A stretch of 64,000 bases of DNA from a virus: IMG/VR virus record IMGVR_UViG_3300046463_000247, positions 34,046 to 98,045 of that record; one strand, given 5' to 3'. The position numbers were made by a program, and so were the translations under genes. Positions 28,153-58,048 of this stretch are shown piece after piece. The notes beneath the pieces are model-generated. The model did not search any database, was not told the origin of the DNA, and saw only the letters and a program-made list of their open reading frames with translations. The stretch's first letter is position 1. Each line of letters begins with the position of its first letter.

Positions 28153-30540
28153 TCAGACTTTCAGTTTCAGTTCCGCCATGTTTTTGCCCGCCTTCCCATC
28201 GGCAGTGAATTTAAGCTGCGGGTGCCAATTCACGGTTTCGAACGGAAGATTTTCCATCAGTTCGATCTCGCGCTTCGCGTAGAACTCCCAGTTGTCCTCG
28301 GGGATGTACGTGTACTTCGCGTCGTGCACCGCGCCGAATGCCGGGCAGGTCTTGGTCCAGCCGTTCTTGTGCGCGAGCGCGAACGTCCACAGCATCATGT
28401 CGGACAGCGTGGACTGGATCGGCGAGTTGATCGCCTGGCGTTCGGCCCCGCTGCGTACCATCCGGTTCGGCGAGTTGATCAGCGGCAGGTGGCGGATACG
28501 GCCCAGCGGCGAGCGCACCATGCCGGTCTTGCTGGCCTCACGCTTGTAGTTGCGGTGGTACACCGGCAGCATCTGGTACGTGTTGAAGAACTGGTTACGG
28601 AAGTCTTCCGCCTCTTCCATCTTCAGCGACACGCCATAGTTGGTCTCCGCGTACGCATGGAAGCCCTGCGCCGACATCCCGTAGATCAGACCGAAGTTGC
28701 CTGCCTTGCCAAGCTGGCGGGTTGCCTCGTACAGCGCCACCTCGTCGGGGTCGTCGCTGTTCTTCATCGCCATCATCCGCTCGTACGTGTAGCCCGCGAA
28801 GTTGCCGGACGTGATCGCGTGCAGGTCCTTGCCGTTGCGGTACGCGTCGATCATCGTGGGCTCGTCGGCCACACAGGCGATCACCTTCAGTTCGCCCTGC
28901 GAGTAGTCGTTCTCCAGGATCAGGTAGCCCTCGGGCGCGATGAAGCACTTGCGCAGCTTCTTCGCCCATTTGGTGTGCTTCGGGATCGTCTGGAAGGCGG
29001 GGTCCTTGCACGAGAGCCGCCCGGTCACGGTGCCGCCCTCGCCCTCGTCGCGGTTGCCCGCGAAGAAGTAATAGCTGGGGTGAAAGCGCCCGTCGCTGCG
29101 TATGTGCTTCTGGAACCCGTGCACGTAGGTCGAGAGGGTCTTGGCCGCGCTCGAATAGTCCGACAGCAGCGCAATGAACGGCGCGGCGCGCTCGTCCTTC
29201 TTGAACATCATCAGGTGCTCTTCTGCCGTCGAAGGCTTGCCGCTTTTCTCGGTCATCATCTTCGGCTTCAGATTCAGACCTTGGGGCGTGAACATGAAGT
29301 CGTTCAGCAGCGATGCCTTCGTGATGTTCAGCCCACCAGGCTTCGAATCGTCCCAGTGCTTCGCGACGAGGTGCCCGCCCAGGTGGCGCTTCGCCTCGAC
29401 AGTCAGCTTCGCCATTTCGGTCACGAGGTCCGCTTCCAGTTCCTTGTACGCGTCCATGTCCACCAGCACGCCACCCTGCTCGATGGCCTCGAACGAACGC
29501 GCGGCTGGGTGCAGGATGTTGACGTAGAAGCGGGTCAGCGCCTCGTCTTTCAGCAGTTCCTCCTTCATCACCTTGCGCACGCGCAGCCCCGCGTCGGTGT
29601 CGCCCCCGGCGTAGCCCAGCAGCCGGTCGTCAGGTGGTAGCTTGTCCATGCGCGACTTGTCCACGATCCGGTCGAACTCGTCGGAGTAGCCCCCCATCGT
29701 CGTGTAAATCTTCGCGTGGATGTCGAGCCCGTTGGAGCGGTTTTCGTCCAGCAGCGAGCCTACCAGTGTCGAGTCGAAGCGGAAGTTGCCGCAGTGCAGC
29801 CCACCCCACACCGCGAGCCAGTGCAGGTCGAACTTCAGGTTCGCACCGCCCATGCTGATCTTCGGGCTGTTCAGCAGTTCGCCCATCATCACGGCGTTGT
29901 CGAAGTTGCTGAACCACGCGATGCACTCGTCACGCGACTTGAAGTGGATCAGGTCGGAGCGGCCCACCTCGCACGAGAACTGGATCGTGACGATGTACGC
30001 GCCGGGGTGGCCGGGCTCCACTTCACCGGGCTTGGCATACGGATCGAGCCCGACCGTCTCCAGGTCGAGCACGCATTCGACGGGTCTGCCGGTCTCCGCA
30101 TACAGCGCGTCGATGCGCGTCAGCATGTCGTGGAAGTCGGTGACCCACCGGTAGTCGCCGGTCGCGGGCTCGTAGCGGCCTGTCTTCAGCACCCGCACCA
30201 CGCTCGATGTGTCGCACAGCACGTCGATGAACTTCGCGTAGTCGATCTCGCCGATGCCGGACGAGTAGGTGAACATCAGCGGCGCGGCGATGCCTTGGAA
30301 CTGGTGCACGCGGGAGCGCTGCGAGGTCAGCGAGCGGTTCTTTGGCAGCAGGCCCGAGCGTTGGAACAGGTCGAGCGTCTTGGTGCCCATGCACAGGATG
30401 GCGCGGGTCCCCTCGTACGCTGGCAGGCGGCTTACGTCGCTGTCCAGCAGCACGGGGAGATCGGAGTGGTGCCGGAGCACCGGGGACAGGTGCGATATGG
30501 TCTGGTGGTTGACCGTATCGCCCCAGAGTACGAGAGACAT
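28153..30540 (-). CDS. DNA polymerase I, family A, with 3'-5' exonuclease domain
   Basis: 795 residues. Exonuclease motifs: DLETVGLDPY (D159, E161), NLKFDLHWL (D238) and GYAGGDTDAG. Polymerase motifs: A, ENDYSQGELKVIA (D545); B, RQLGKAGNFGLIYG (R608, K612); C, VHDAKY (H739, D740). Motif C has Ala where HDE is usual, and motif A has Gly where SQIE is usual. It replicates the phage genome. The start overlaps the preceding stop (TAATG) and lacks a clear ribosome site of its own. It is the last gene of a four-gene operon ending in a terminator. Confidence 0.93.
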   Translation of the reverse strand: MSLVLWGDTVNHQTISHLSPVLRHHSDLPVLLDSDVSRLPAYEGTRAILCMGTKTLDLFQRSGLLPKNRSLTSQRSRVHQFQGIAAPLMFTYSSGIGEIDYAKFIDVLCDTSSVVRVLKTGRYEPATGDYRWVTDFHDMLTRIDALYAETGRPVECVLDLETVGLDPYAKPGEVEPGHPGAYIVTIQFSCEVGRSDLIHFKSRDECIAWFSNFDNAVMMGELLNSPKISMGGANLKFDLHWLAVWGGLHCGNFRFDSTLVGSLLDENRSNGLDIHAKIYTTMGGYSDEFDRIVDKSRMDKLPPDDRLLGYAGGDTDAGLRVRKVMKEELLKDEALTRFYVNILHPAARSFEAIEQGGVLVDMDAYKELEADLVTEMAKLTVEAKRHLGGHLVAKHWDDSKPGGLNITKASLLNDFMFTPQGLNLKPKMMTEKSGKPSTAEEHLMMFKKDERAAPFIALLSDYSSAAKTLSTYVHGFQKHIRSDGRFHPSYYFFAGNRDEGEGGTVTGRLSCKDPAFQTIPKHTKWAKKLRKCFIAPEGYLILENDYSQGELKVIACVADEPTMIDAYRNGKDLHAITSGNFAGYTYERMMAMKNSDDPDEVALYEATRQLGKAGNFGLIYGMSAQGFHAYAETNYGVSLKMEEAEDFRNQFFNTYQMLPVYHRNYKREASKTGMVRSPLGRIRHLPLINSPNRMVRSGAERQAINSPIQSTLSDMMLWTFALAHKNGWTKTCPAFGAVHDAKYTYIPEDNWEFYAKREIELMENLPFETVNWHPQLKFTADGKAGKNMAELKLKV

Positions 30541-30935
30541 TACTTACGTTTCCAGTCGTCGCTTGTGTATTCGTAGGAGCAGACAATGCCCTTGTCGAGT
30601 GCCGCGAGGGTCTTGTCCGCATCACCCCGTGCAACGAATTCCAGTGTCGAGAGCGACAGGCCACACAGGTTTCCGTTGAGGACGTGGCAGGTCAGGGCCT
30701 TGCCCAGGTTCTCGGAGACGAAGTATAGCCACAAATCTTTCCGCACTTTCATGAAAGCGGACGATTTTTCCTTGGATACCTGGTCAGTGATCAGGGACAC
30801 GTCCACCGGGAAGCGGAACGGGCCGATTTCCAGCACGCGGGACTTCAGACCGCGCCAGCTATTGTTGCCCTGGTGATCGAGCGGGATTTCGGCAGCGTCA
30901 ACGATGGTCAGCAGGGATAGAACTTCGATGCTCAC
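30540..30935 (-). CDS. Unknown protein upstream of DNA polymerase
   Basis: 131 residues from GTG (MSIEVLSLL), with GGAGG before it and a GTGA overlap with the preceding stop; the longer frame is rejected. It has a mixed alpha/beta pattern, RFPVDVSLITDQVSKEKS and KDLWLYFVSENLGKAL, and two Cys near CHVLNGNLCG. It is encoded with the polymerase, so a replication accessory role is possible but unproven. Confidence 0.65.
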   Translation of the reverse strand: MSIEVLSLLTIVDAAEIPLDHQGNNSWRGLKSRVLEIGPFRFPVDVSLITDQVSKEKSSAFMKVRKDLWLYFVSENLGKALTCHVLNGNLCGLSLSTLEFVARGDADKTLAALDKGIVCSYEYTSDDWKRK

Positions 30936-31192
30936 AGGGCCTCCAGCGACACAATGGTTTCGATCACTTCGACGGTGAATTCCCCCATCGACACACCCTG
31001 CCAGTACAGCCCAAGCCGGAACCACCGGTCGTCGGACGCCTCCAGCACCACCGCCTGCGCGTCCACCGGGTCGATGCCCGGCACCGGGCTCGCGATAGGC
31101 AGGCTCTGGCCGACCGGCGTCGCGCGCAGATTCGCCAGCAGCTTCTCAGCGTCCGGCGAAGTCGTTTTCATTTCGGTTACTTCGCGGCTCAT
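30932..31192 (-). CDS. Small unknown protein in DNA polymerase operon
   Basis: 86 residues, ATGA overlap with the previous gene. Acidic, with a beta-rich C-terminal half (DRWFRLGLYWQGVSMGEFTVEV). No recognised motif. It is translationally linked to the 315-residue protein and to the gene before the polymerase. Confidence 0.6.
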   Translation of the reverse strand: MSREVTEMKTTSPDAEKLLANLRATPVGQSLPIASPVPGIDPVDAQAVVLEASDDRWFRLGLYWQGVSMGEFTVEVIETIVSLEAL

Positions 31193-32136
31193 TCGGTCAC
31201 CCCGATCTGTTTTACGTTCTTGATCTGTTCATCGAAGTCCACGCCCAGGCCCATCAGGAACGCGCCAATCACGCGGCCCACCGGCACGCCGTTGGTCTGG
31301 AAGTGGATTGAGTAGTGGCCCTGCGTGCTCGGGTTCATGCTCGCGGCCTTCAGCGCGTTGCGAATCTCGGCGTTGAACGGACCCTCGGCGCGGATGCTGA
31401 CGCTGGCCCCGTCTGCAATTGATTGCACGCGAGCGGCGAGCTTGACCCGCTCCGACAGCGCAATGCACAGGTACACGCTGTGCGCGTCGGTGCCCTTCAC
31501 CTTCTGGCCGATCTGCGTGGCGTCCTTCAGCGCAACCACCCCTGCGGGCATCACCGGAGCCTTCGGCTTGACACTGGGGTCCACCTTGAACGGCATCGCC
31601 TCGGCGTGCAGGTCAGCCGCCTGTTCAGCCGGGGGCACCTTCTTCGTCGGCTTCGGGGTCACCATGTTGCCGGACAGCGAGCCGGGGAAGTCCCCGCCAC
31701 TGGTGAACTGCACCTTCTTCGTCGGCTTGATCTTCTCGGCCTCGGCGAAAAACTGCTCTGCCGGGCTCGGGATTACCGTCTTGATCGCCTCCATCGCGTT
31801 CTCCGCGACGCTGCCGCCGTTCGCATCGAGAAAGCCCCACGCGTCCGCCAGCACCTGCTCGACCAGCGTCTTGCATGAGGCTTTCACCCCTGCGTCGGCG
31901 GTGCCCTTGATCAGCGAGACCGTCGAGGCGGGTAGCGTCACGCCGTACGTGAAGGGCATCCCGTTCTTCGCGGTGCCGCTCACGCCGATATTGAAAAACG
32001 CCTGGTTCACTTCGATGTGCTGGCTATTGGCCTCCAGCGCGTGAAACTCTACCAGCAGGTCCGGGTAGACCTTACCGAGAAACGACCCGTCACCGGGGGC
32101 CGATTTGGGCTGATTTATTTTGAGGTTTAGTGCCAC
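31189..32136 (-). CDS. Unknown 315-residue protein, first gene of DNA polymerase operon
   Basis: GTG start with TTGGAGTGACACT upstream. The N-terminal ~110 residues form a beta-rich domain (DLLVEFHALEANSQHIEVNQ). A Lys/Pro-rich linker follows, then a domain of ~110 residues (GTDAHSVYLCIALSERVKLAARV, HYSIHFQTNGVPVGRVIGAFL). The first gene after a TTGACT-16-TAGAAT promoter. A DNA-binding or replication role is possible from context only. A palindrome encodes VQSIAD. Confidence 0.65.
   Translation of the reverse strand: MALNLKINQPKSAPGDGSFLGKVYPDLLVEFHALEANSQHIEVNQAFFNIGVSGTAKNGMPFTYGVTLPASTVSLIKGTADAGVKASCKTLVEQVLADAWGFLDANGGSVAENAMEAIKTVIPSPAEQFFAEAEKIKPTKKVQFTSGGDFPGSLSGNMVTPKPTKKVPPAEQAADLHAEAMPFKVDPSVKPKAPVMPAGVVALKDATQIGQKVKGTDAHSVYLCIALSERVKLAARVQSIADGASVSIRAEGPFNAEIRNALKAASMNPSTQGHYSIHFQTNGVPVGRVIGAFLMGLGVDFDEQIKNVKQIGVTE
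31414..31427 (+). repeat. Dispersed palindrome
   Basis: Inside the 315-residue gene. Confidence 0.9.
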
Positions 32137-32169: not shown

Positions 32170-32197
32170 ATTCTAACACAATCAGCCGGATAGTCAA
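32170..32197 (-). promoter_or_regulatory. Promoter for DNA polymerase operon
   Basis: TTGACT, 16 bp, TAGAAT. The stop TGA of the long phosphatase-like gene lies inside the -35 box. Confidence 0.75.
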
Positions 32198-32982
32198 ACA
32201 GTATCGTTGCGCATCGCGCGCTTGACCCAGATGTTCTTGCGGGATTGCATCGGGCGGATCGACGGCAGCTTGCGCGGGCCGCTGGCTTTCTTCTCCCGCG
32301 TGCCGACGCCCATCGAGCCCCAGCCGTCACCGTAGATCGGGTCGGCCTTGCCACCGCCGCCGTTACTGCTGACGCGCCCGGTCGTCGGGGCGTGGCTGTC
32401 GAAGTTATCGAAGGGGGCGCTACCGAACAGGTCGCTGCCATACAGGTTCGACGGCGACCACTTGCCGGTCGAATACGTGCGGCTCTTCGACCCGGCCACC
32501 GGCTTGACCCCGTAGTGCTTCTCCAGGAACTTGATCTGCGACTCCGACTCGACCGCCTTCTGGCAGTAGTGCTTGCGCACGTAGGTGATCGCATCGGTCT
32601 CGCCGGTCATGAAGGCGACCAGTGCGGCGAAGAACGTGCCCGTGCGGCCATGTCCGCCGATGCACCCGGCGTGGACCTTCTTGCCCGCCTTGATCTGCGC
32701 TGCCGTCCACTCGACCAGGTTGCGGAACTCCACCGCGTCCATCGGCGCGTGCATGTCGGTCACCGGGAAGTACACCTCGACCGGCCCCTTGTCCGCATGC
32801 CACGGCCAGCTTGCCGCCGTCAGCTTCATCCCGTGATCGAATCCGATGTACACGTCCGCATCGAAGACGGCAGGGCTCAGGCACGAGCCGCCATACACTT
32901 CCCAGTCGCCGACTTTCAGCGCCGGGTGATCGTGGTAGCACATCTTGTAGCCACCGTTGCTCTTGCCGTTCTTTGCTTTCAT
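32194..32982 (-). CDS. Tyrosine-phosphatase-like protein (CX5R), long form
   Basis: 262 residues from MKAKNGKSNG, AAGGAG upstream. Core: DVYIGFDHGMKLT, YFPVTDMHAP, then KVHAGCIGGHGRTGTFFAAL. The last contains the CX5R(T) phosphate loop (C-IGGHG-R) of protein-tyrosine/dual-specificity phosphatases; the residue before Cys is Gly rather than the usual His. YVRKHYCQKAVES follows, as in DSPs. About 90 C-terminal residues are disordered and basic. The stop TGA lies inside the -35 box of the next promoter. A second CX5R protein is encoded 1.1 kb upstream. Confidence 0.8.
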   Translation of the reverse strand: MKAKNGKSNGGYKMCYHDHPALKVGDWEVYGGSCLSPAVFDADVYIGFDHGMKLTAASWPWHADKGPVEVYFPVTDMHAPMDAVEFRNLVEWTAAQIKAGKKVHAGCIGGHGRTGTFFAALVAFMTGETDAITYVRKHYCQKAVESESQIKFLEKHYGVKPVAGSKSRTYSTGKWSPSNLYGSDLFGSAPFDNFDSHAPTTGRVSSNGGGGKADPIYGDGWGSMGVGTREKKASGPRKLPSIRPMQSRKNIWVKRAMRNDTV

Positions 32983-33011
32983 GCAATCGACTCCTTCGAT
33001 TGTTGCTGGTT

Positions 33012-34064
33012 TCAGGCCGTAGCCTTGGATTTGGTTTTGCCGCGTTCGAGGATCGCGACGGACTGCCCGGGGAACACCTGCCACTCACCCAGCACCTTCG
33101 TGAAGCCCGGGGGCAAGGTGACCTGCTTGCCCGGCTCGCCGTACTTCTCGGCCTGCATCTGCTTCTCGTGCGGGTACTTCTTCAGCGCGCCCAGCGCTTC
33201 GACCTTGTACCAGTCGCAGTACTGGCCGAATTCGTCAGGCCACTCGGTGCGTGCGGCCATCGCAAGCGCGTACAGGTCGGAGAACTTCTTCGCGAAACTG
33301 TGCGACTCGTACATGTCGATCAGCAGTTCGACGCACTGGCCGCTGCGCTGCACGTCGAGAATCTTGTAGATCAGTGCCGAGTAGTCGTCGTACAGCATGC
33401 CCTTGTTGAACATTGGGCCGTTATTGTGCGCGAGCGTCCACGCGGTGTCGATCATCACCTCCAGGCTCGTCTCGCCGTTCACGAAGCGCGAGAGCGTCTG
33501 TGCGATGTTGCCCCACGGCTTGCCGCCGTAGCCACCCGAGAAGTTGCCCTCGTTGAACAGGAACGTCAGCCCCTCGCAGTACGGGCCAAGCTGCATTTCG
33601 GGCGGGTTGTCGAGTAGCGCTTCCACCGCAGTGTGCGATCCGCCGCCCTTGATCAGCTTGTTAAACGCGTAGAAGGCGCTGCCGTACTTCTCTTTCGCCA
33701 GCTTCGGCGTGGCTTCGTCCTTCACGTGGCGCGACTCGCGGGTCGTGATCAGCAGCATGTAGTGGAACAGCCGCAGCCCCTGCGACGCGAGGGCCGAGGT
33801 GTAGGCTTCCATGACCTTGCGCGCCAGCGGCGTGAGGAACTGGTGTCGGGTGAAACGCTTCTGGACGACTGCCGCCAGGTGATTCAGCGCGTAGAAGCGC
33901 AGCGCGTCGGTGTCCGGCTCGGCGAGGCCACCGGGACCTCCGTTCTCCTTGTACGTTTTGCAATTGATTGCAACGCGGGAGACGAGGTAATGGCCGACGC
34001 CTTGCGGGTGCATCTGGGGAGCGCTGAGGTAGTACGCGAGGGTATTCTTGTCTTCGAATCGCAT
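33012..34064 (-). CDS. Unknown 350-residue protein between two phosphatase-like genes
   Basis: 350 residues, CAAGGAGTGAAGCC before the ATG. Well-folded composition, rich in Tyr/Phe: LRFYALNHLAAVVQKRF, FHYMLLITTRESRHVKDEA, NNGPMFNKGMLYDDYSALIY. No motif I can name; the conserved-looking N/D/H/R residues could support an enzyme. Its promoter lies within the end of the upstream phosphatase gene. A palindrome encodes VAINCKT. Confidence 0.7.
   Translation of the reverse strand: MRFEDKNTLAYYLSAPQMHPQGVGHYLVSRVAINCKTYKENGGPGGLAEPDTDALRFYALNHLAAVVQKRFTRHQFLTPLARKVMEAYTSALASQGLRLFHYMLLITTRESRHVKDEATPKLAKEKYGSAFYAFNKLIKGGGSHTAVEALLDNPPEMQLGPYCEGLTFLFNEGNFSGGYGGKPWGNIAQTLSRFVNGETSLEVMIDTAWTLAHNNGPMFNKGMLYDDYSALIYKILDVQRSGQCVELLIDMYESHSFAKKFSDLYALAMAARTEWPDEFGQYCDWYKVEALGALKKYPHEKQMQAEKYGEPGKQVTLPPGFTKVLGEWQVFPGQSVAILERGKTKSKATA
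33958..33973 (+). repeat. Dispersed palindrome, full 16-mer
   Basis: Inside the 350-residue gene, near its start. Confidence 0.9.
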
Positions 34065-34097
34065 GGCGGCTTCACTCCTTGAATGCCGATCTGATAC

Positions 34098-34589
34098 TTA
34101 GGATTCTACCACAAACGACCCGTTTGTCAAACATGTGCGAAATTGAAACAGCGCCTTGATCCGGGCTTTCCGCAGCATTTTCTTCACTTCAGCCGGGATC
34201 GGGTAATCCAGCACGAACTGGTACTGGTCATCCGTCTCGACCGCGTGCGGGTAGTAATGCTCGCGCACGTACTCGACCGGCATCTTCACGCCAAAAGCCT
34301 TCGCCAGGATCGACAGGAACAGCCCTGTGCGGCCCCGTCCCGCGTAGCAGCCCACATACACCTGCTGCCCGGCGAGGACCGCTGCGACCGCCTGCGTCAG
34401 CCCGGCATCGAGCAGGTCTTTCGACGGGACACTGAAGTCCTGCGTCGGAATGTCAATGTCGGCCTTTGCGCCGATTTCCTTCGCCATCTTGACGCCGACC
34501 ATGTTCGCCGGACGCGCCAGATACGGACCGCCTGCGACCGTGAAGTGCTTCAGACCCATGAGTACCGGGAGATTGAGGGTTCCGTTCAT
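34098..34589 (-). CDS. Tyrosine-phosphatase-like protein (CX5R), short form
   Basis: 163 residues from MNGTLNLPVLMG with AAGGAG upstream. It carries VYVGCYAGRGRTGLFLSIL, a CX5R phosphate loop (C-YAGRG-R), and then YVREHYYPHAVETDDQ, aligning with the long paralogue downstream. Acts on phospho-residues or other phosphate esters; substrate unknown. Its 3' end overlaps the promoter of the 350-residue gene, and its first ~137 nt overlap the preceding gene in another frame. Confidence 0.8.
   Translation of the reverse strand: MNGTLNLPVLMGLKHFTVAGGPYLARPANMVGVKMAKEIGAKADIDIPTQDFSVPSKDLLDAGLTQAVAAVLAGQQVYVGCYAGRGRTGLFLSILAKAFGVKMPVEYVREHYYPHAVETDDQYQFVLDYPIPAEVKKMLRKARIKALFQFRTCLTNGSFVVES
34103..34130 (-). 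promoter_or_regulatory. Promoter inside the end of the short phosphatase gene
   Basis: TTGACA, 16 bp, TAGAAT, reading into the 350-residue gene. It overlaps the last codons of the phosphatase-like gene. Confidence 0.7.
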
Positions 34590-34920
34590 GCTTGTGCAAC
34601 TCCTTTGCGTGTGGCCCGTAGACCGTTTTGATTTGACCAACATAGCCGCAGTGCTTGCAGCCTTCTCCTTCACAGTGCTCGCATTCGTCCCACGCGGTGA
34701 GACTGGTGCGGGCGCTCAACTGGCGTTCCGGGGGCGCGACGTGGGTCATGCTGTGCACCCGCGCGCCGTCCACTTCGAACAGCCAGTTATTGAACCTGCG
34801 GTTGCCGCGTTCGTGCGTGATCAGCGCGGCGCACCGGACCATCTGCTGCAATGCTTCGGGGGTGATACTCTCGGCAGCGCAGACACGCGCCACCTGGTCA
34901 GATTGTTCTAATGCGGACAT
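34453..34920 (-). CDS. DnaJ-type zinc-finger-like protein with long out-of-frame overlap
   Basis: 155 residues from MSALEQSDQ. The middle contains CEHCEGEGCKHCGYVGQ, two CxxC pairs like a DnaJ zinc-binding repeat. After that the reading continues 137 nt into the phosphatase gene in a different frame, where composition turns Arg/Gly/His-rich (HGRRRSVSGASGEHGRRQ). The functional part is probably the first ~110 residues; the tail may be incidental. Confidence 0.6.
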   Translation of the reverse strand: MSALEQSDQVARVCAAESITPEALQQMVRCAALITHERGNRRFNNWLFEVDGARVHSMTHVAPPERQLSARTSLTAWDECEHCEGEGCKHCGYVGQIKTVYGPHAKELHKHERNPQSPGTHGSEALHGRRRSVSGASGEHGRRQDGEGNRRKGRH

Positions 34921-35155
34921 GGGTCGGGGCCTCGAAAGCCAGTCGGGGGCGCTGGCTCGCGTCGTGATGCCGAAGCCCGTAACTGACGAATGTTTCATCC
35001 ATGAGTTCGACCCGCGCCTGATCCGTGACCTCGTACGTGCGACCGTTGAATTCGACCGTCACCGAGTTGCCCCGCTGCACGGCCACCACGTTCAGCACGC
35101 CGTTCGTGCCCACCTGAATCTTCGTGCCGCGCGAAACGCCAATACTAAGTGCCAT
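34898..35155 (-). CDS. Small CsrA-like beta protein
   Basis: 85 residues, GGAGCAACCCG before the ATG. MALSIGVSRGTKIQVG...VLNVVAVQRGNSVTVEF parallels the N-terminal strands of CsrA (LTRRVGE, xIGDDI, VLGVKGxxV), and LAFEAPTHVRIRTI parallels its APxxVxVxR strand. Between them is an insert of ~30 residues absent from CsrA. If correct, it would bind GGA-containing leader RNAs. This is my pattern match, not a database hit. Confidence 0.55.
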   Translation of the reverse strand: MALSIGVSRGTKIQVGTNGVLNVVAVQRGNSVTVEFNGRTYEVTDQARVELMDETFVSYGLRHHDASQRPRLAFEAPTHVRIRTI

Positions 35156-35570
35156 CGGGTTGCTCCATCAGGTCAGTACATTCATCTGTCAGTGCCCAGA
35201 CACTGCCACCGGGCAGGTTCTTGCGGGCGTGTACCCGGTACACCAGTTTCATGCCCATGAGTACGGTCAGGCAGGTCGATGCCTCGCTTACAGTGAAGCG
35301 CTCGCCTCTGGCTTGCAGCCGGGCGGCAACTTCCCCCGAGTTTGGCTCGTCCAGTTCGGCGAGCATTGCCAGCGTCTTGTACAGGCGGGAGCCGACCTTG
35401 GGGAGCCGTACCCGCGCCTTGTCCGACACTTTCTCGGGGATCACTATCTCCTGCAAGGTGGTTTCCATGACCTTGTTCAGTCCGCACAGACAGTGGAGTA
35501 CGAGGTCAGGACCATCCCATCGCTGGAAAGCCCCGCCAGAGCCGCACTTCGGACACTTCAATCGAGTCAT
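35145..35570 (-). CDS. Zinc-ribbon plus winged-helix-like protein
   Basis: 141 residues from ATG; a GTG three codons earlier is an alternative. The N-terminus has CPKCGSGGAF and HCLCGLNK, a four-Cys ribbon. The C-terminal part (KTLAMLAELDEPNSGEVAARL, EASTCLTVLMGMKLVYRV) reads like a winged-helix DNA-binding domain. It may be a phage transcription regulator. It is the first gene after a TTGCTC-17-TATATT promoter inside the end of the PPDK-like gene. Confidence 0.65.
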   Translation of the reverse strand: MTRLKCPKCGSGGAFQRWDGPDLVLHCLCGLNKVMETTLQEIVIPEKVSDKARVRLPKVGSRLYKTLAMLAELDEPNSGEVAARLQARGERFTVSEASTCLTVLMGMKLVYRVHARKNLPGGSVWALTDECTDLMEQPDGT

Positions 35571-35600
35571 ATTCGCCACTACTTGCTGAAAGTGGCGGCG

Positions 35601-35629
35601 AATATAGCCGTAAATCAGTCGTGGAGCAA
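35601..35629 (-). promoter_or_regulatory. Candidate promoter for zinc-ribbon gene
   Basis: TTGCTC, 17 bp, TATATT; overlaps the end of the PPDK-like gene. Shares TATATTCGCCG with the candidate at 21.13 kb. Confidence 0.45.
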
Positions 35630-37570
35630 CTTCGAAACGACAACACTTTCACTCAGAAACGACAGCCCGTTAGGATTGAGCGTGCCGGGCGCGGCCATCA
35701 GGGACAGTCCGTCCTCTTTCTTCTTCCAGGCCATCACCTTCTGCACTGCCGCGCTGTCCTCGCCGGACCACATCAGCACGTTCGACGCGAGCACCAGTTG
35801 CTCCAAGGTCTCGGCCACGCTCAGGCGCGGCAGCTTGGTCTGGCACGTGGTGATGATGCACACGCGGTCCGGGTTCAGCGACACCGACTCCAGCAGGTGT
35901 ACGAGGGCCTGTTCGCGATCCGTCTCGACCGGCGCACCGAACGGCTGAAGGAAAGCGGCCTCGGCCTCTTCGAGCTTCAGCGTCGTGTCGATGTACAGGC
36001 AGGCGGTGGCGTCGTACATGCCCTTCACGAGCTTCGCGAGGCGGTTCTGCGGCCACGTCAGCTTGTCGGCAAGGCGCAGATAGCCCACCGTACCCGAGCC
36101 CGTCTCGTGGCTGATCGGCACCGCGTTCAGCGACTCGAACATCAGGCGGCGGAACTCAGCCAGCGTCGCGTCCTGCGAGCCCGGCACGACCGGCACTTCG
36201 GTCTTCCACACGCGCCCCGTCGCGCCGTCGATGCTCACGCTGCTGCCCTCGGGGAACTGGTTGATCGACACCGACAGGCCCACCACACACGGCTTGTTCA
36301 TCGAACGCGCCACTACTGCGGCGTGCGAGGTCGAGCCGCCCGTCATGGTCAGAATCCCGCGTGCCGCGTTCATTCCGGCGATGTCATCCGGGGTCGTTTC
36401 GCTGGTTACCAGGATACACGGCTTTTTGCAATCAATTGCAGCCTGTGCCGACCGCACGACTACGCCGGTCACGATGCCCGAACACGCGGCGATGCCGGTA
36501 AAGTCCGGTTTCGTGGTGAAAGACGGGTCGATCACGTCGAGCTTAGCGCGGTCGTAGTCGCTGGCCTTCACGCGCTCGAACATCTGCGGCAGCGTCAGCA
36601 TTGCCTCCTTGTGCATGTCCAGCGCGATCTTCACCGCAGCCTTCGCGCTGCGCTTGGCGTTGCGGGTTTGCAGGATGTACAGCTTGCCGTCCTCGACCGT
36701 GAATTCCACGTCCTGCACGTCACCCTTCAGCGATTCCAGCCGCAGCACGGTCTCGATCAGTTCATCGTAGACCGGGTGATTCCAGTCCTTCATCGCGGCG
36801 AGCTTCAGCGGCGTCTTGATGCCTGCCACCACGTCCTCACCCTGCGCATTCGGCAGAAACTCGCCGGTCACGACGTTCTCGCCGGAATCAGGGTTGCGGG
36901 TGAACAGTACGCCGGTTGCCGACTGGTCGTTGAGGTTGCCGAACACCATCGCCTGGATCACCACGGCGGTGCCCCAGTCGTCGGGGATATTGTTCATCTT
37001 GCGGTAGAAAACCGCGCGTTCGTTGTTCCAGGAGTTGAACACCGCCTCAATCGCCTCGGCGATCTGCTGGTCGGTGTCGGGGAACGCGGTGCCGGTCATG
37101 TACGAGTAGATCGACCGGTATTCGTCCGGCGTCGTGCAGTCCTCGAACTCGTGGCGGTCGATGCCCTTGACCACGTTGCCGAACATTTCGATCAGGCGGC
37201 ATTCGCTGTCGGTCACGCAGTGTGCGCCGAGCTTGCTGATCCAGACGTTGCGCGTCGCGCCGTCGATGCCGACGTTCAGCACCGTGTCCATCATGCCGGG
37301 CATCGAGACGCGGGCACCGGAGCGCACCGACACGAGCGGCATGTGGCCCATGTACTGCTTGAAAAATGCGCGGATGTCCGGCAGCGCCTTCTGGATTGCG
37401 GCGCGCACGTACTCGGGGTTCTTCATGTATTCGACGCACACTGTCGTCGGGATGATCAGCGCGGGCGGGACAGTGATGCCGTTCTGCTGCATCCACCACA
37501 GGCCGAAGCCCTTGCCACCCAGGCGCTCGGCGTTGAATTCGCCCTTGGAATAAACGGAAAAGAGTTCCAT
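35615..37570 (-). CDS. Pyruvate phosphate dikinase-like phosphotransferase lacking the pyruvate/PEP barrel
   Basis: 651 residues from MELFSVYSKG. PPDK features: ERLGGKGFGL (~16), nucleotide-binding LVSVRSGARVSMPGMMDT (~79-96), GVLFTRNPDSGENVVTGEF (~220-238) and EFTVEDGKLYILQTRN (~289-303). The swivelling phosphohistidine domain has GILTMTGGSTSHAAVVAR, with the catalytic His near 416. Bacterial PPDK continues for ~350-400 residues as a TIM barrel; here only ~180 unrelated residues follow. It can be expected to bind ATP and phosphorylate its own His, but the acceptor must differ. Promoter TTGACA-16-TATTCT. Confidence 0.85.
   Translation of the reverse strand: MELFSVYSKGEFNAERLGGKGFGLWWMQQNGITVPPALIIPTTVCVEYMKNPEYVRAAIQKALPDIRAFFKQYMGHMPLVSVRSGARVSMPGMMDTVLNVGIDGATRNVWISKLGAHCVTDSECRLIEMFGNVVKGIDRHEFEDCTTPDEYRSIYSYMTGTAFPDTDQQIAEAIEAVFNSWNNERAVFYRKMNNIPDDWGTAVVIQAMVFGNLNDQSATGVLFTRNPDSGENVVTGEFLPNAQGEDVVAGIKTPLKLAAMKDWNHPVYDELIETVLRLESLKGDVQDVEFTVEDGKLYILQTRNAKRSAKAAVKIALDMHKEAMLTLPQMFERVKASDYDRAKLDVIDPSFTTKPDFTGIAACSGIVTGVVVRSAQAAIDCKKPCILVTSETTPDDIAGMNAARGILTMTGGSTSHAAVVARSMNKPCVVGLSVSINQFPEGSSVSIDGATGRVWKTEVPVVPGSQDATLAEFRRLMFESLNAVPISHETGSGTVGYLRLADKLTWPQNRLAKLVKGMYDATACLYIDTTLKLEEAEAAFLQPFGAPVETDREQALVHLLESVSLNPDRVCIITTCQTKLPRLSVAETLEQLVLASNVLMWSGEDSAAVQKVMAWKKKEDGLSLMAAPGTLNPNGLSFLSESVVVSKLLHD
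36426..36440 (-). repeat. Dispersed palindrome, CA centre
   Basis: Inside the PPDK-like gene, encoding AIDCK before the phosphohistidine domain. Confidence 0.9.
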
Positions 37571-37607
37571 CTGGCTATTCACTCCTTGAATTGGCCGTTG
37601 AGTCATC

Positions 37608-40512: not shown

Positions 40513-40774
40513 GATCTTCTCCGACCGTCGCGGGCGACACGACCTCCAGTTCATAGCGGCGCACCTTCGCGCCACCCTCGACATCGACCCAGCCGTAGAA
40601 CTCGGCGTTCGGGCGCGTGTAGATCGTCGGGGGCCACACGCCATCGAGCGGCACGTACAGCACCACGTCCGCGCCGTCTTCCTCGCGTTTCGCGTGACCG
40701 ATGATCTCGTAGGTGGTGCCCTTATAGTGCCGGGCGCGGAGGGACGGGTGATTCGTGGAATTGATCAGCAGCAT
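40502..40774 (-). CDS. DUF1653-like protein
   Basis: 90 residues from MLLINSTNH; an ATG nine codons earlier is possible and neither has a ribosome site, so coupling to the preceding gene is likely. RARHYKGTTYEIIGHAKREED, VVLYVPLDG and TRPNAEFYGWV match the DUF1653 pattern (YxGxxYxVxxxAxxxE ... VxYxxL ... WxRPxxxFxxxV). These small beta proteins recur in phages; biochemical role unknown. Confidence 0.7.
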   Translation of the reverse strand: MLLINSTNHPSLRARHYKGTTYEIIGHAKREEDGADVVLYVPLDGVWPPTIYTRPNAEFYGWVDVEGGAKVRRYELEVVSPATVGEDHGA

Positions 40775-41204
40775 AGTCAGCGCGCAATTGTTCGACCGCA
40801 TGGATGCAGTCGTGGATTATCTCTACGCGAGCCACTGGAGTTTCGGCGCACACATAGCGGACCAGTCCGTCGAAGAACGTCCGTGCAGCCTCAACGGGTT
40901 CGGCGTCGCGGTAGGCCCAGAGGCTTTCCAGTACGACTTCCAGCGCCGAACCCGTGAGGGTCACGAACGGCACAAGTCCGATGTTCGAAGTTTCATCGGT
41001 CATGTACCAGACCGCCTTGCCCAGGTCCTTGTAGGCGGTGCCCTTCTCGTCGCGTCGGGTGACGTACTTGAAGGCATCGGCCATGTTCGACCCAAGCATG
41101 CGCTTGACTACAATGCACTCTACCCCAGACGGGTGACGGTTATAGTGCGCGGCGTGATTGATCCCTTCCGGGTCGATCATCATTCCTGTGGTGCTGTGGT
41201 CCAT
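40722..41204 (-). CDS. DUF3310-like protein
   Basis: 160 residues from MDHSTTGMMI. INHAAHYNRHPSGVECIVV, NMADAFKYVTRRDEKG and KDLGKAVWYM match the DUF3310 pattern (YxxxGxEcIdv ... fNAxKYvxRxxxKgg..eDLxKAxwYl), common in phages. The C-terminal half is helical. Possibly nucleotide-related, by its co-occurrence with nucleotide-metabolism genes in other phages; uncertain. Confidence 0.8.
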   Translation of the reverse strand: MDHSTTGMMIDPEGINHAAHYNRHPSGVECIVVKRMLGSNMADAFKYVTRRDEKGTAYKDLGKAVWYMTDETSNIGLVPFVTLTGSALEVVLESLWAYRDAEPVEAARTFFDGLVRYVCAETPVARVEIIHDCIHAVEQLRADYAADQFHESPVPPRPAL

Positions 41205-41248
41205 ACTCTGCACTCGTTTGCACAACCGTCGTCCGTCCATAGCCTGCT

Positions 41249-41611
41249 TCAGACTCCCGGCAACCTGGAAGCCATCACGTCGCGGCAAGCCAGCGCTACG
41301 TGTCGGTGCCCTGCATGCGTGCTACCCGTGAAGGTGCGCGCTCTCTTTGATTCGGTGATTCCTTCCGGCAGCGCTGCGCGGGCGACATCCTTCGCCACGG
41401 TCAGGTCGTGCGCCTTCAGGTCATAGACATGGATGGGCGGTTTCGGTTGAAATGGTTTTCCGCCCAATCTCGCAGCGACGGCACGCGTCACATTGAAACC
41501 GCCCATCCTTGCCCACGCCCGCCTTACGTTCCCTGCACCCGCAGCCGGGGTCTGCGCTGTGGAACACGCAGTAATTACCGGATTTGTGTGGGGCACCAGA
41601 CGGACTCGCAT
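41249..41611 (-). CDS. Uncertain 120-residue protein
   Basis: ATG lies 10 nt after AAAGG and downstream of a TTGCGG-16-TATAAT promoter. C-terminal half (PPIHVYDLKAHDLTVAKDVA) looks coding. The alternative frame 41421-41621, from TTG, gives a Cys-rich protein (CVFHSADPGCGCRERK, FQCDACRRCE), also plausible but its start is badly spaced from the ribosome site. Both cannot be excluded. Confidence 0.45.
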   Translation of the reverse strand: MRVRLVPHTNPVITACSTAQTPAAGAGNVRRAWARMGGFNVTRAVAARLGGKPFQPKPPIHVYDLKAHDLTVAKDVARAALPEGITESKRARTFTGSTHAGHRHVALACRDVMASRLPGV

Positions 41612-54642: not shown

Positions 54643-56097
54643 TTACTTGACGATGCACCAGCCCGCGAACTCGCCGAAGCGGAACACTTCGCGCGCACCC
54701 AGTTGCGTGAACAGCAGCATGTCGGGGCGAATCGGGCGCTGCGCACCTGCGAGGCTCAGTTCCTTCAGGATGATCTCGTCAGCCGGTACACCAGCGGCTA
54801 CCTTGCCTGCCAGCGTGAGGCGGTGCGTGACCGTGCCCAGATAGCCGTCGAACGTGTCTGTCTTGTCGAAGATCACTAGGCAACCACCCGGGTTGAGCTT
54901 GTCCACCATGCGCTTGAGCACGTCGCGCTGTTCCATCGGCGGCAGGAACATTAGCAGCAGGAAGCACACGCCGAAGTCATACGGCTGATACTCGAAGTCC
55001 CGCACGTCCGCCACTTCGAACTCGCCGACACCGCGCCACACGTTCGCCATTTCCTGACTGTTGTCGAGGCTCACCGCGCGCACGCCGCGTTTCTCGATCT
55101 CCTTCTTCAGGGCCAGCGTGATATTGCCGGTCGATGCGCCCATGTCGTACATGCGGCCACCCTGCGGCAGGTAGTGGCGACCGAAGTGCGCGACGAGGCC
55201 GGTTGCCATGTCGTACCACGGAAGCTGCTCGCGCACGTGCAGGTCGAAGTTATCGGCGATGCTCTGGTTGTGGAAGGACCAGTCCACGGGGATGTCCATG
55301 CCGCGCGTGCCCCGTGCGTCGCGGTCGTGTTCGTACTGCTGGGCGGGGGTCAGCTTCAGGGCGTCGGACATGGCGTTCTGGATGTTGTCGCCACCGTAGG
55401 CGGCGTAGGCGTCACCCGGTATGGGCTCACCGTGGGCTTCGCGGGGCATCGGTTGATACGGATGATCGGTCTTGTCTGCGGAGCCGTCTACGAGGTTGGC
55501 TTCCTGCTCGATGCGCGCGGTGTTGAACGCGGTGAAGTCGTCTACACCAGCGACGCCGCCCACCTCTGCCTGCTCTCTGCCGTCAAAGTCGGGATCACGA
55601 AAGGAACCCACACCCTCGGATGCGAAGGTCGCTCCGCTCTGGATGATCTTGTAGGCGGCACTGTTCGGGTCGGGCGTGAAGCGGGCGGCTGCACCCACGG
55701 CGGCGTCGATGTCGGCCTGCGTGACCGTCTTCACCTCTGGCGTGCCGGTGGCGATGGCCTTGTCGAGATCGGCCTTGCCTGCGGGTGCCGTCTTGGCGGG
55801 TGTGACCTTACCCTTGACGACTGTCGGGGCACGGCGTTCGGCGCGCGGCTCTTCGGGCAGGCGCTTGGCGGGCTTGGTCGGCACGTTGTAGTTGGTCTTG
55901 CTGGCGACAGCGGAGCGCGTCTTGGCCTTCTCCACTTCCACCCGGGCGGGGGCCAGCTTGCCCTCGTACTCAGGCGCGACCTGCTTCGTCACGTCTTTCG
56001 CCTTGAAGTCCCCGGAGGTGCCGAAGCCGGTCACCTGGCCGAACGGGGTACGTGCGTCAACGATAGGGCGTACGCAGCCCTTTATGCCGTTTGTCAT
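54643..56097 (-). CDS. Class I SAM-dependent methyltransferase with long N-terminal extension
   Basis: 484 residues from MTNGIKGCVRP, AGGACC upstream. The first ~270 residues are low-complexity Lys/Ala/Pro/Asp. The catalytic domain follows: MYDMGASTGNITLAL (SAM motif I), AVSLDNSQEM (motif II), ADVRDFEYQPYDFGVCFLLLM (motifs III-IV), then LNPGGCLVIFDK. It lies directly after the large terminase. Small-molecule, RNA or virion-protein methylation are all possible. The disordered extension is unusual for a free enzyme. Confidence 0.75.
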   Translation of the reverse strand: MTNGIKGCVRPIVDARTPFGQVTGFGTSGDFKAKDVTKQVAPEYEGKLAPARVEVEKAKTRSAVASKTNYNVPTKPAKRLPEEPRAERRAPTVVKGKVTPAKTAPAGKADLDKAIATGTPEVKTVTQADIDAAVGAAARFTPDPNSAAYKIIQSGATFASEGVGSFRDPDFDGREQAEVGGVAGVDDFTAFNTARIEQEANLVDGSADKTDHPYQPMPREAHGEPIPGDAYAAYGGDNIQNAMSDALKLTPAQQYEHDRDARGTRGMDIPVDWSFHNQSIADNFDLHVREQLPWYDMATGLVAHFGRHYLPQGGRMYDMGASTGNITLALKKEIEKRGVRAVSLDNSQEMANVWRGVGEFEVADVRDFEYQPYDFGVCFLLLMFLPPMEQRDVLKRMVDKLNPGGCLVIFDKTDTFDGYLGTVTHRLTLAGKVAAGVPADEIILKELSLAGAQRPIRPDMLLFTQLGAREVFRFGEFAGWCIVK

Positions 56098-56116
56098 TAT
56101 GTCTGGTCCTGAGTTT

Positions 56117-56132
56117 TTGCAATTGATTGCAA
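56117..56132 (+). repeat. Dispersed palindrome, full 16-mer
   Basis: Between terL and the methyltransferase gene. Confidence 0.95.
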
Positions 56133-56179
56133 GACGCCGTACCCCTACGACGCCCTGTTTGCTGCTGAATCTGGCGGCT

Positions 56180-58048
56180 CTAGTCTCTCTTAACTTTGGC
56201 CGATTCCTGCGCGATTCTAACCGATTCTGGAACTCGCACAAGCGGAATGTTGAACGCGCCCCAGATTTCCCGGCGCATCGTCAGTCCGTACTGCACGCCG
56301 GTCATGGCGTCCGAACAGTCCTTGCTGCCATTTGGCGGGTGGTCGATCTTCTTTCGAATCACGTCCTTTTCCAGCGTCAGGAACTCCTTCTGGGCCACGG
56401 CGTGCGCCGGGTGCGAGATACGCCCGTCGAGGAAGGCGCTCTTCTCCATTTCGTACGGCAGCATCGACGTGTCCATCGAGATATAGCCGGTCGTGTAGCC
56501 CTTCTGGCGGAATATCTGCATCGAGTCTACGGACTGGAACGAGTCGAAGCTGATCCAGCGGATATTGATGCCGAATACATCTTTGAGCTTGTACACGAAG
56601 TCACGTATCAGGTGGAACTTGATCTCGTCCCCGGTCGGCGGCACGACCCGCAACGTGAAGTCGTAGTGGAAGTCCGGCATCACTTCTTCCACGTCGTTGG
56701 CGAGGGTCTGCTTGAAGCCCTTCACCGTGCCCATGCTGACGCCCGCCGCATCACCCGTGACACCCAGGTCGATGTGCACCCAGCGCGGCAGGTCGGGCCG
56801 ATAGATGTGCTTGCGGATCACCTTCAGCGGGCCGGTATCGGTGCCGACTGCGACGCCATCGAAGCAGTGCTGCTCCTTGTTCAGGATCGACGCGTGCGTG
56901 CCGAATCCCGCCACGACCTTCTCGTGGTTCAGGATGAACGGGAAGCGGGCCATGGTGGCGATACCGGCGATGTCGCGCAGCGCGCCAATGATGTCGCCGT
57001 CGAACTGGTTGCGGTGCTCGACCGGCACTTCGATCACCAGGTGGCGATGGTCGGCAGGCACCTCTTCCACGGTCTGTATGAGCTTGGGGCGGGTCACTTC
57101 GTCCCCGGCATAGACGAGGAAGCGTTCACCACTGTACGTGCCCGCTGGCTTGATTTCCCACACGCGCTTGTCGTACACGTAGATCGTCGGGTCGGTGGCT
57201 GCTGCCGCCTGAATCTGGTCGGTGAGCGCACCCGGGTAGTTCTTGGACGACACCATGCACAGGATGCCGGGCTGTCCGCCGTTGTTGACGAAGCGCGACT
57301 TGATACGGCGGCTGATGCTCTCGTAGATCACCTTGGCCTGATCGTACACCCCGCCCTGCCCGCCGTTGCCCTTCTTCGAGTTCTGCACCACCTCCATGAA
57401 GTCCACCTCGTCAATGATGCCGCCGATCACGTTCTGACCGATGGCCCCACCGTCGCTTGTCATCGGCTTCGCCTCAACCCGGTTCGGGAAAATCAGCGCC
57501 GACTTGATGTCCTTCTTGTACGGGTACACCGTGTTGAAGTAGTACGACTGCTCGATGATCGCCCGGAAGCGCGTGTAGTCCACGTCGGACGCGAGCGCCG
57601 CATTCATTGACTGGAAGATCACGAGGATTTCGGAGGTCGAGTCCAACTGGAACATCGAATGCGGGCTCTTGTAGCACGAGGTCAGGTATAGCTGGTACGC
57701 ATTCACGTAGAGCGCCGTGGTGGTCTTCGCCGAGCCAATGCCGCCCGTGAACACGCCCTGCGTCCAGCCATTCGTGAGCCGTCCGTTCTTCTCGTTGATG
57801 GCGATCAGTTCGTCCACCACAGCCGGGTACAGTTCGGATTTGGGGCGGGCCAGAAAGTGCTTGCTGAACAGGAATTCCTCCACGTGCACCGGGTACGTGT
57901 GGATGTTCAGGGCGTGGCGTAGCTGGTTGACGTTGCCGTCGTCGTACGCGCGCTCGATGCCTTCCAGCAGGAAGGTCCGCAACTCGGGGTTGTTCACGCA
58001 CGCAGCCGCCGCCTTGACCTTCTTGTAATCTAGGGTTTTGATGTCCAT
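56180..58048 (-). CDS. terL: Terminase large subunit
   Basis: 622 residues. Walker A-like GVFTGGIGSAKTTTAL (~100), Walker B GGIIDEVDF (~222), coupling-type motif CMVSSKN. The nuclease half has HIDLGVTGDAAG, RWISFDSFQSVDS and KDCSDAMTG, supplying the acidic metal ligands. It cuts and pumps DNA into the prohead. No strong ribosome site precedes the ATG. A 10-bp inverted repeat and a palindrome lie just upstream. Unusually, ~28 kb of replication and accessory genes separate it from the portal gene. Confidence 0.92.
   Translation of the reverse strand: MDIKTLDYKKVKAAAACVNNPELRTFLLEGIERAYDDGNVNQLRHALNIHTYPVHVEEFLFSKHFLARPKSELYPAVVDELIAINEKNGRLTNGWTQGVFTGGIGSAKTTTALYVNAYQLYLTSCYKSPHSMFQLDSTSEILVIFQSMNAALASDVDYTRFRAIIEQSYYFNTVYPYKKDIKSALIFPNRVEAKPMTSDGGAIGQNVIGGIIDEVDFMEVVQNSKKGNGGQGGVYDQAKVIYESISRRIKSRFVNNGGQPGILCMVSSKNYPGALTDQIQAAAATDPTIYVYDKRVWEIKPAGTYSGERFLVYAGDEVTRPKLIQTVEEVPADHRHLVIEVPVEHRNQFDGDIIGALRDIAGIATMARFPFILNHEKVVAGFGTHASILNKEQHCFDGVAVGTDTGPLKVIRKHIYRPDLPRWVHIDLGVTGDAAGVSMGTVKGFKQTLANDVEEVMPDFHYDFTLRVVPPTGDEIKFHLIRDFVYKLKDVFGINIRWISFDSFQSVDSMQIFRQKGYTTGYISMDTSMLPYEMEKSAFLDGRISHPAHAVAQKEFLTLEKDVIRKKIDHPPNGSKDCSDAMTGVQYGLTMRREIWGAFNIPLVRVPESVRIAQESAKVKRD

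Follow-up and report, generated by a model that had tools for sequence, protein, structure and literature searches.

The window analysed here, a 64,000-nucleotide stretch of viral DNA, covers positions 34046-98045 of the 98,045-base record IMGVR_UViG_3300046463_000247. Its minus strand carries genes for a dikinase resembling pyruvate, phosphate dikinase (PPDK), for a 350-residue protein that we call UNK, and for two Cys-based phosphatases of the protein tyrosine phosphatase (PTP) type, PTP1 and PTP2. We propose that these proteins probably make up one phosphate-transfer machine, in which a barrel-swapped dikinase would pass phosphate from ATP to a histidine and on to an acceptor at UNK, with dedicated phosphatases alongside. 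As read from the sequences, the donor and phosphatase active sites are intact, the barrel has been lost, and dikinase, UNK and PTP are linked. An earlier interpretation made from the letters alone (the sequence-only reading) had described six proteins between 32194 and 37570, and each of them is found at its place on the minus strand. Shine-Dalgarno-like sequences and homologue alignments indicate later starts than those of the longest open reading frames (ORFs) for the dikinase (37570), PTP1 (34589) and PTP2 (32982), so that these coordinates are right once the dikinase begins at its codon 13 ATG. The principal features are as follows.

35615..37606, minus strand: PPDK-like dikinase (ORF; likely start at codon 13, giving a gene at 35615-37570).
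36323..36325, minus strand: codon of the catalytic phospho-histidine His428, within the motif GGSTSHAAVVAR; His428 and the preceding Thr426 are invariant in 58/58 homologues.
34098..34673, minus strand: PTP1, a Cys-based phosphatase with the loop CYAGRGRTG (C109, R115, D79, Q150; likely start at codon 29, 34589).
33012..34064, minus strand: UNK, an all-alpha protein of unmatched fold and proposed acceptor-binding/phosphotransfer module, fused to the PPDK-like protein in contigs L091 and L126.
32194..33084, minus strand: PTP2, a Cys-based phosphatase with the loop CIGGHGRTG (C141, R147, D110, Q183; likely start at codon 35, 32982).

The dikinase consists of an ATP-grasp domain (residues ~20-345), a swivelling phospho-His domain (~365-468) bearing His428, and a C-terminal alpha/beta domain of ~190 residues where PPDK has its phosphoenolpyruvate (PEP)/pyruvate barrel. 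Its identity to PPDK is ~40% across the first 500 residues. Pfam recognises PPDK_N (8e-43) and PEP-utilizers (4.8e-25); a barrel domain is missing both there and among the families listed for the 58 homologues. A single-sequence dikinase scan of viral contigs returned only the window's own contig, while an alignment-based scan with UNK recovered relatives. When the window protein is aligned with 57 homologues, taken from viral contigs and from bacterial ones of prophage-like character, K32, R95, E301, Q313, R315, T426 and H428 are present in all 58 sequences and D299 in 57; we take this set to be the Thr-x-His dyad and the ATP site of PPDK. In searches of whole records with the TIGR01828 model, three true bacterial PPDKs match positions 2-865, whereas the phage homologues all end by ~528; the window dikinase scores 446.8 bits, under the cut-off of 843.45. 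A profile of the C-terminal 190 residues of the phage proteins gave no alignment with true PPDK barrels in hhalign, where the first 26 residues matched at 11% probability. Pfam, TIGR01828 and hhalign therefore agree with the sequence-only reading of a PPDK-like protein that keeps its ATP-binding and phospho-His domains and has no barrel.

The predicted model of the dikinase is confident (predicted local distance difference test, pLDDT, 90.9) and folds the C-terminal region, for which the earlier interpretation had proposed such a prediction, into a small alpha/beta domain. A fold search with the whole chain returns PPDKs as best matches, and because the alignments span nearly the full PPDK length, this region may be a shrunken remnant of the barrel.

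The strongest link between the dikinase and UNK comes from divergent phages. In L091 (692 amino acids) and L126 (698 amino acids), one chain holds ATP-grasp domain, His domain and UNK, with a PTP gene directly after it; UNK is C-terminal, at the position of the PPDK barrel, and L091 matches two PHROG models, that of the kinase and that of UNK. In at least six further contigs (L092, L129, L139, L144, L159 and L169), UNK follows a divergent N-terminus of ~400 amino acids, shortened in L144 and L169, and again a PTP gene lies next to it. In the aligned members, this N-terminus shows a GG/S-x-x-SH motif at the phospho-His place, preceded by an E ... Q-x-R motif; profile comparison is not significant, with the best alignment falling on the His motif. 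In L089, His domain, UNK, PTP and ATP-grasp domain occupy four separate ORFs, and reading through TAG under an alternative genetic code fails to join them. Since dikinase, UNK and PTP adjoin, with one order in the fused forms and a different one in the split form, their gene arrangement indicates that they very probably form one machine. Its fusion to the dikinase in divergent phages also makes UNK likely to be the acceptor module of the dikinase and not a bystander, a role absent from the sequence-only reading.

UNK has no match in Pfam or NCBIfam, none among Protein Data Bank (PDB) sequences even when searched as a profile, and matches in PHROG only the unnamed PHROG 20946. Its AlphaFold2 model is all-alpha, with a pLDDT of 89.7, and finds nothing among PDB structures at E < 0.001 (query TM-score of the top match, 0.15), so that its earlier description as an uncharacterised protein of 350 residues stands. 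Four significant matches in a viral structure library are all nameless and thus add nothing on function. The conserved set comprises E110-x-R112-H113, a GG-xx-W motif with W184, and H213-N214 ... N220-K221; the E, R, H, W, H, N, N and K residues are kept in every architecture, split or fused. Judged by residue types alone, this set reads like an active site with phosphate-binding residues.

For PTP1 and PTP2, the Pfam matches are weak but real, and profile searches give strong matches to PTP and dual-specificity phosphatase (DSP) enzymes, the closest solved relatives being archaeal PTPs, DUSP23-like enzymes and receptor PTPs. Every complete phosphatase copy upstream of UNK has a CX5R loop of the type CxxGxGRT and every one downstream has CxGGHGR[TS]; the catalytic Asp, Cys and Arg and the Q-loop Gln are invariant in both families. 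By these residues, the two proteins are members of the PTP/DSP superfamily with intact active sites, and the loops first noticed from the letters alone (lying within CYAGRGRTG in PTP1 and CIGGHGRTG in PTP2) are backed by Pfam and PDB profiles. A relative of PTP2 was detected in 11 of the phage records bearing UNK and the block polymerase. One phosphatase suffices in some phages, since Vibrio phages 1.215.A, SIO-2 and sm030, each inspected singly, have one PTP.

These phosphatase genes are labelled 'thymidylate synthase' in many public records, among them those of DLP3 and DLP5 (MT110073, MG189906), SIO-2 (NC_016567) and sm030 (OX411389). The label is an error, because the translated genes of SIO-2 and sm030 contain the PTP loops GCLGGFGRTG and GCLGGIGRTG. 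We rejected thymidylate synthase as the identity of PTP2 and PHROG 17568, as the same genes match PTP profiles; the ThyA family has no match in 12 of the 13 genomes of the set. The mislabel has passed into the PHROG annotation (PHROG 17568).

The block is carried by a family of bacterial viruses of about 80-117 kb. On the minus strand, in the direction of transcription, it runs from a DNA ligase through the PPDK-like protein, a zinc-ribbon protein, a CsrA-like protein and a small zinc-ribbon ORF to PTP1, UNK, PTP2, two uncharacterised genes and a family A DNA polymerase. The remaining members lie at these positions.

35145..35579, minus strand: small zinc-ribbon protein (C-x2-C ... C-x-C) with invariant cysteines, present at 27 loci, about a third of related loci.
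34898..35155, minus strand: small CsrA-like protein, a constant block member (51/51 testable contigs; 7/25 homologues match Pfam CsrA).
34453..34998, minus strand: small protein bearing a zinc-ribbon motif of the DnaJ type, CEHCEGEGCKHCG; the ORF overlaps that of PTP1, and a homologue occurs in 45/51 testable contigs.
31189..32136, minus strand: X315, a conserved gene always between PTP2 and the polymerase (67/67 testable contigs).
30540..31025, minus strand: small conserved gene adjoining the polymerase (67 loci).
28153..30540, minus strand: family A DNA polymerase, which closes the syntenic block across related loci.

We scored 75 distinct viral contigs of the main lineage, counting a contig as testable upstream of UNK if at least 6 kb was available there (n=51) and downstream if at least 6.5 kb was (n=67). 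The dikinase, the CsrA-like protein and PTP1 are upstream of UNK in 51/51 testable contigs, and PTP2, X315 and the polymerase downstream in 67/67; in all 75, the block genes are on one strand, and gene order is invariant wherever visible. Chance alone falls far short of explaining this arrangement. UNK occurs in 40 of 50,697 phage records (33 Vibrio, 4 Stenotrophomonas, 2 Rhizobium and 1 Rhodobacter) and the block-type polymerase, at ≥41% identity, likewise in 40 with the same genus tally, an agreement judged by tallies and the rows listed, not accession by accession. Distant polymerase relatives at 28-33% identity (the Rhodobacter RcTiptonus and Pseudomonas SM1 groups) have no counterpart in the UNK list. 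The sequence-only reading had named two findings that would undo it, missing co-occurrence and degenerate active sites. Instead, the block genes occur together in all comparable phages and the sites are intact, with the key ATP-site and His residues in 58/58 dikinases, D299 in 57/58 and CX5R in all complete phosphatases.

How such a machine might work can be set out in three steps. The PPDK-like protein would phosphorylate itself on His428 at the expense of ATP, releasing AMP and probably using inorganic phosphate too, as true PPDK does; this chemistry is inferred because the active sites are intact and invariant. The His domain would then swivel, and an acceptor bound by UNK would receive the phosphoryl group; the gene fusion supports the physical link between dikinase and UNK. 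UNK would thus stand in for the PEP/pyruvate barrel, in trans in the window phage and in cis in divergent phages. Finally, the dedicated Cys-phosphatases, whose enzymatic residues are intact, would strip the phosphate, either reversing a mark or acting as a later pathway step. Several points weigh against this scheme. The fusions tie the proteins together functionally but do not tell which of them is the acceptor. UNK might be the protein that is phosphorylated, or a regulator, or an enzyme acting on the product, and acceptor binding might fall instead to the ~190-residue C-terminal domain that the main-lineage dikinase retains. That the divergent N-terminus (group B) is PPDK-like is only suggested, by the position of its motifs.

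As to the target of the proposed machine, we lean tentatively towards a nucleic acid or nucleotide handled in phage DNA replication or modification, because of the replication-gene neighbourhood and the restriction resistance of DLP3 and DLP5 DNA. One specific version of the proposal, which we regard as possible though doubtful, is a DNA (hyper)modification or nucleotide route, in which dikinase and UNK would turn a base or nucleotide into an activated, phosphorylated intermediate, and phosphate would be cleared from the intermediates by the phosphatases, leaving modified DNA. DLP3 DNA resists 15/15 restriction enzymes (PMC7326821) and DLP5 DNA is cut by 4/36 (PMC5834331), and both phages carry the block, which may explain this so far unexplained resistance; in the main lineage, the block also adjoins a DNA polymerase. 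A SNF2-type helicase is present in 5/5 long fusion-type genomes tested, at the following positions.

L091 6528-8210 and L126 4970-6652: SNF2-type helicase directly upstream of the fusion.
L092 84-2486, L139 1669-4257 and L159 10932-13493: SNF2-type helicase immediately before the fusion-type block or no more than several kb from it.

None was found above the cut-off in 11 unfused main-lineage genomes, so the helicase is confined to fusion-type phages and was rejected as a universal block partner. The resistance of DLP3 and DLP5 could also be due to their glycosyltransferase, epimerase, aminotransferase or methyltransferase, and a search for restriction data on other block phages found none. 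We also looked in lineage genomes for a universal link of the block to glycosyltransferase, ParB, ThyX or ThyA and found none; as these matches are not universal, no complete modification pathway can be drawn. Still less probable, and in our view unlikely, is the bolder claim that UNK is a new enzyme fold moving phosphate from a PPDK-derived phospho-His onto phage DNA or a DNA precursor. If true, this would, with the paired phosphatases, be a new phosphate-dependent chemistry of DNA modification or replication control in a large phage lineage.

The protein version offered by the sequence-only reading, in which the dikinase reversibly phosphorylates a host or phage protein and the phosphatases undo it, we consider rather doubtful. 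The best characterised substrates of the PTP/DSP superfamily are phosphoproteins, and the opposed arrangement of kinase and phosphatase is conserved. Enzymes of the PTP fold also act on RNA, lipids and sugars, however, and no target candidate was found. To our knowledge, no described PPDK-type dikinase in the compared families transfers phosphate to a protein other than itself. What holds of that phospho-transfer reading is the intact, co-occurring donor and phosphatases; it missed the likely role of UNK.

It is improbable that the phosphatases and the dikinase are independent core genes, held together by conservation of the replication block as a whole. The entire stretch from dikinase to polymerase is syntenic, so that linkage alone is weak evidence of joint function; yet dikinase, UNK and PTP stay together in L089, L091 and L126, where they lack the polymerase block, and UNK and PTP, with a diverged N-terminus, recur as fusions in L092, L129, L139, L144, L159 and L169. 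An auxiliary metabolic role, in which the protein would convert pyruvate and PEP into each other like a genuine PPDK, has been published for the homologous gene of Vibrio phage J26 (PMC12038007). It can be dismissed despite the PPDK fold matches and the ~40% identity over the first 500 residues, since no member of the phage clade has the PEP/pyruvate domain, UNK takes the place of this domain in fused forms, and that study's own comparison restricts the overlap with 1GGO to residues 1-527 (PMC12038007).

Three other identities were set aside. PADLOC anti-phage defence models gave no match for seven block proteins, which removes a defence or counter-defence system of known family. The block proteins are not among the 21 virion proteins found in DLP3 particles and so are probably not structural; a virion component was rejected on this list. 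An NAD+/ADP-ribose system was dropped because the viral survey of such systems names no dikinase (PMC9503650).

The smaller block members received partial assignments. C9, C12, C30 and C32 of the zinc-ribbon protein are invariant among homologues, in line with its first description, and it has no match in the PDB. The CsrA-like assignment has support at the level of the family only: Pfam CsrA PF02599 matches 7 of 25 homologues (best 1e-5) but not the window copy, and the only PDB match is a CsrA homologue at E 0.38. In phages, the block always includes this CsrA-like protein (window 34898-35155). In DLP3, the gene at the position of the DnaJ-type zinc-ribbon ORF is annotated 'transcriptional repressor' (PMC7326821). 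X315 has no match in the PDB.

Some observations concern individual contigs. Whole blocks lie within the bacterial contigs L098 (Roseococcus pinisoli, 667 kb) and L093 (Azospirillum sp., 169 kb), which suggests prophages or plasmid-like phages, as reported for DLP5. The family A polymerase is much longer (1078-1684 amino acids) in L021, L022, L027, L028, L031, L046, L088 and L160, and in L088 and L160 the match is interrupted by about 280-325 residues, intein-like. In L021 (IMGVR 3300001605_000014), dikinase and PTP1 are split into several ORFs, probably by sequence errors. L006 (OR846604) encodes a full-length, 881-amino-acid PPDK with barrel and is therefore likely a host contig mislabelled as phage; further 'Listeria/Enterococcus phage' contigs are probably host-derived as well. 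Elsewhere, the window encodes a methyltransferase-domain protein (54643-56241) and a DUF3310 protein (40722-41288).

Compared with known systems, viral NAD+/ADP-ribose systems with rhodanese-phosphatase partners also place Cys-phosphatases of the same broad superfamily beside virus enzymes, but their survey mentions neither PPDK nor dikinases (PMC9503650). Like PTPs and dual-specificity phosphatases (archaeal 5z59, DUSP23, receptor PTPs; Pfam PTP-SAK and Tc-R-P), the block phosphatases have the CX5R(T) loop, the catalytic Asp and the Q-loop Gln; unlike them, they form two phage-specific subfamilies, mostly with CxGGxGRT loops. The dikinase shares with PPDK (TIGR01828, EC 2.7.9.1) the ATP-grasp and phospho-His domains, ~40% identity and all catalytic residues including the Thr-Ser-His motif, and differs from it in having, instead of the PEP/pyruvate TIM barrel, a ~190-residue region without detectable barrel homology, together with UNK. 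The joining of ATP-grasp and His domains to a non-barrel domain, of putative acceptor role, in L091 and L126 resembles the PPDK-type superfamily at large.

Rifampin phosphotransferase, the glucan water dikinases and PigC are PPDK-type enzymes with an exchanged acceptor domain, and in plant starch phosphorylation the glucan dikinases are opposed by dual-specificity (Cys-) phosphatases. The phage dikinase has weak profile and fold matches to rifampin phosphotransferase, glucan water dikinases and PigC/RedH, with which it shares the combination of ATP-grasp domain, swivelling His domain and a different acceptor module. In contrast to these, its putative acceptor module, UNK, is of unmatched fold, its parent is a true PPDK, and phosphatases are encoded in the same block. 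The sequence-only reading knew of no described phage system of this form, and none was found in the literature searched. Two published labels are corrected by the comparison, PPDK as a carbon-metabolism gene and 'thymidylate synthase'. The block is present in isolated Stenotrophomonas, Vibrio, Rhizobium and Rhodobacter phages, which makes its function directly testable. What a widespread phage lineage conserves so strictly in this block would thus be a phosphate-transfer machine that is still unstudied and includes a protein whose fold has no match: the logic of a dikinase with a swapped acceptor is known, and what is new is a barrel-swapped dikinase of the PPDK type whose partner has a novel fold and which comes with phosphatases of its own.

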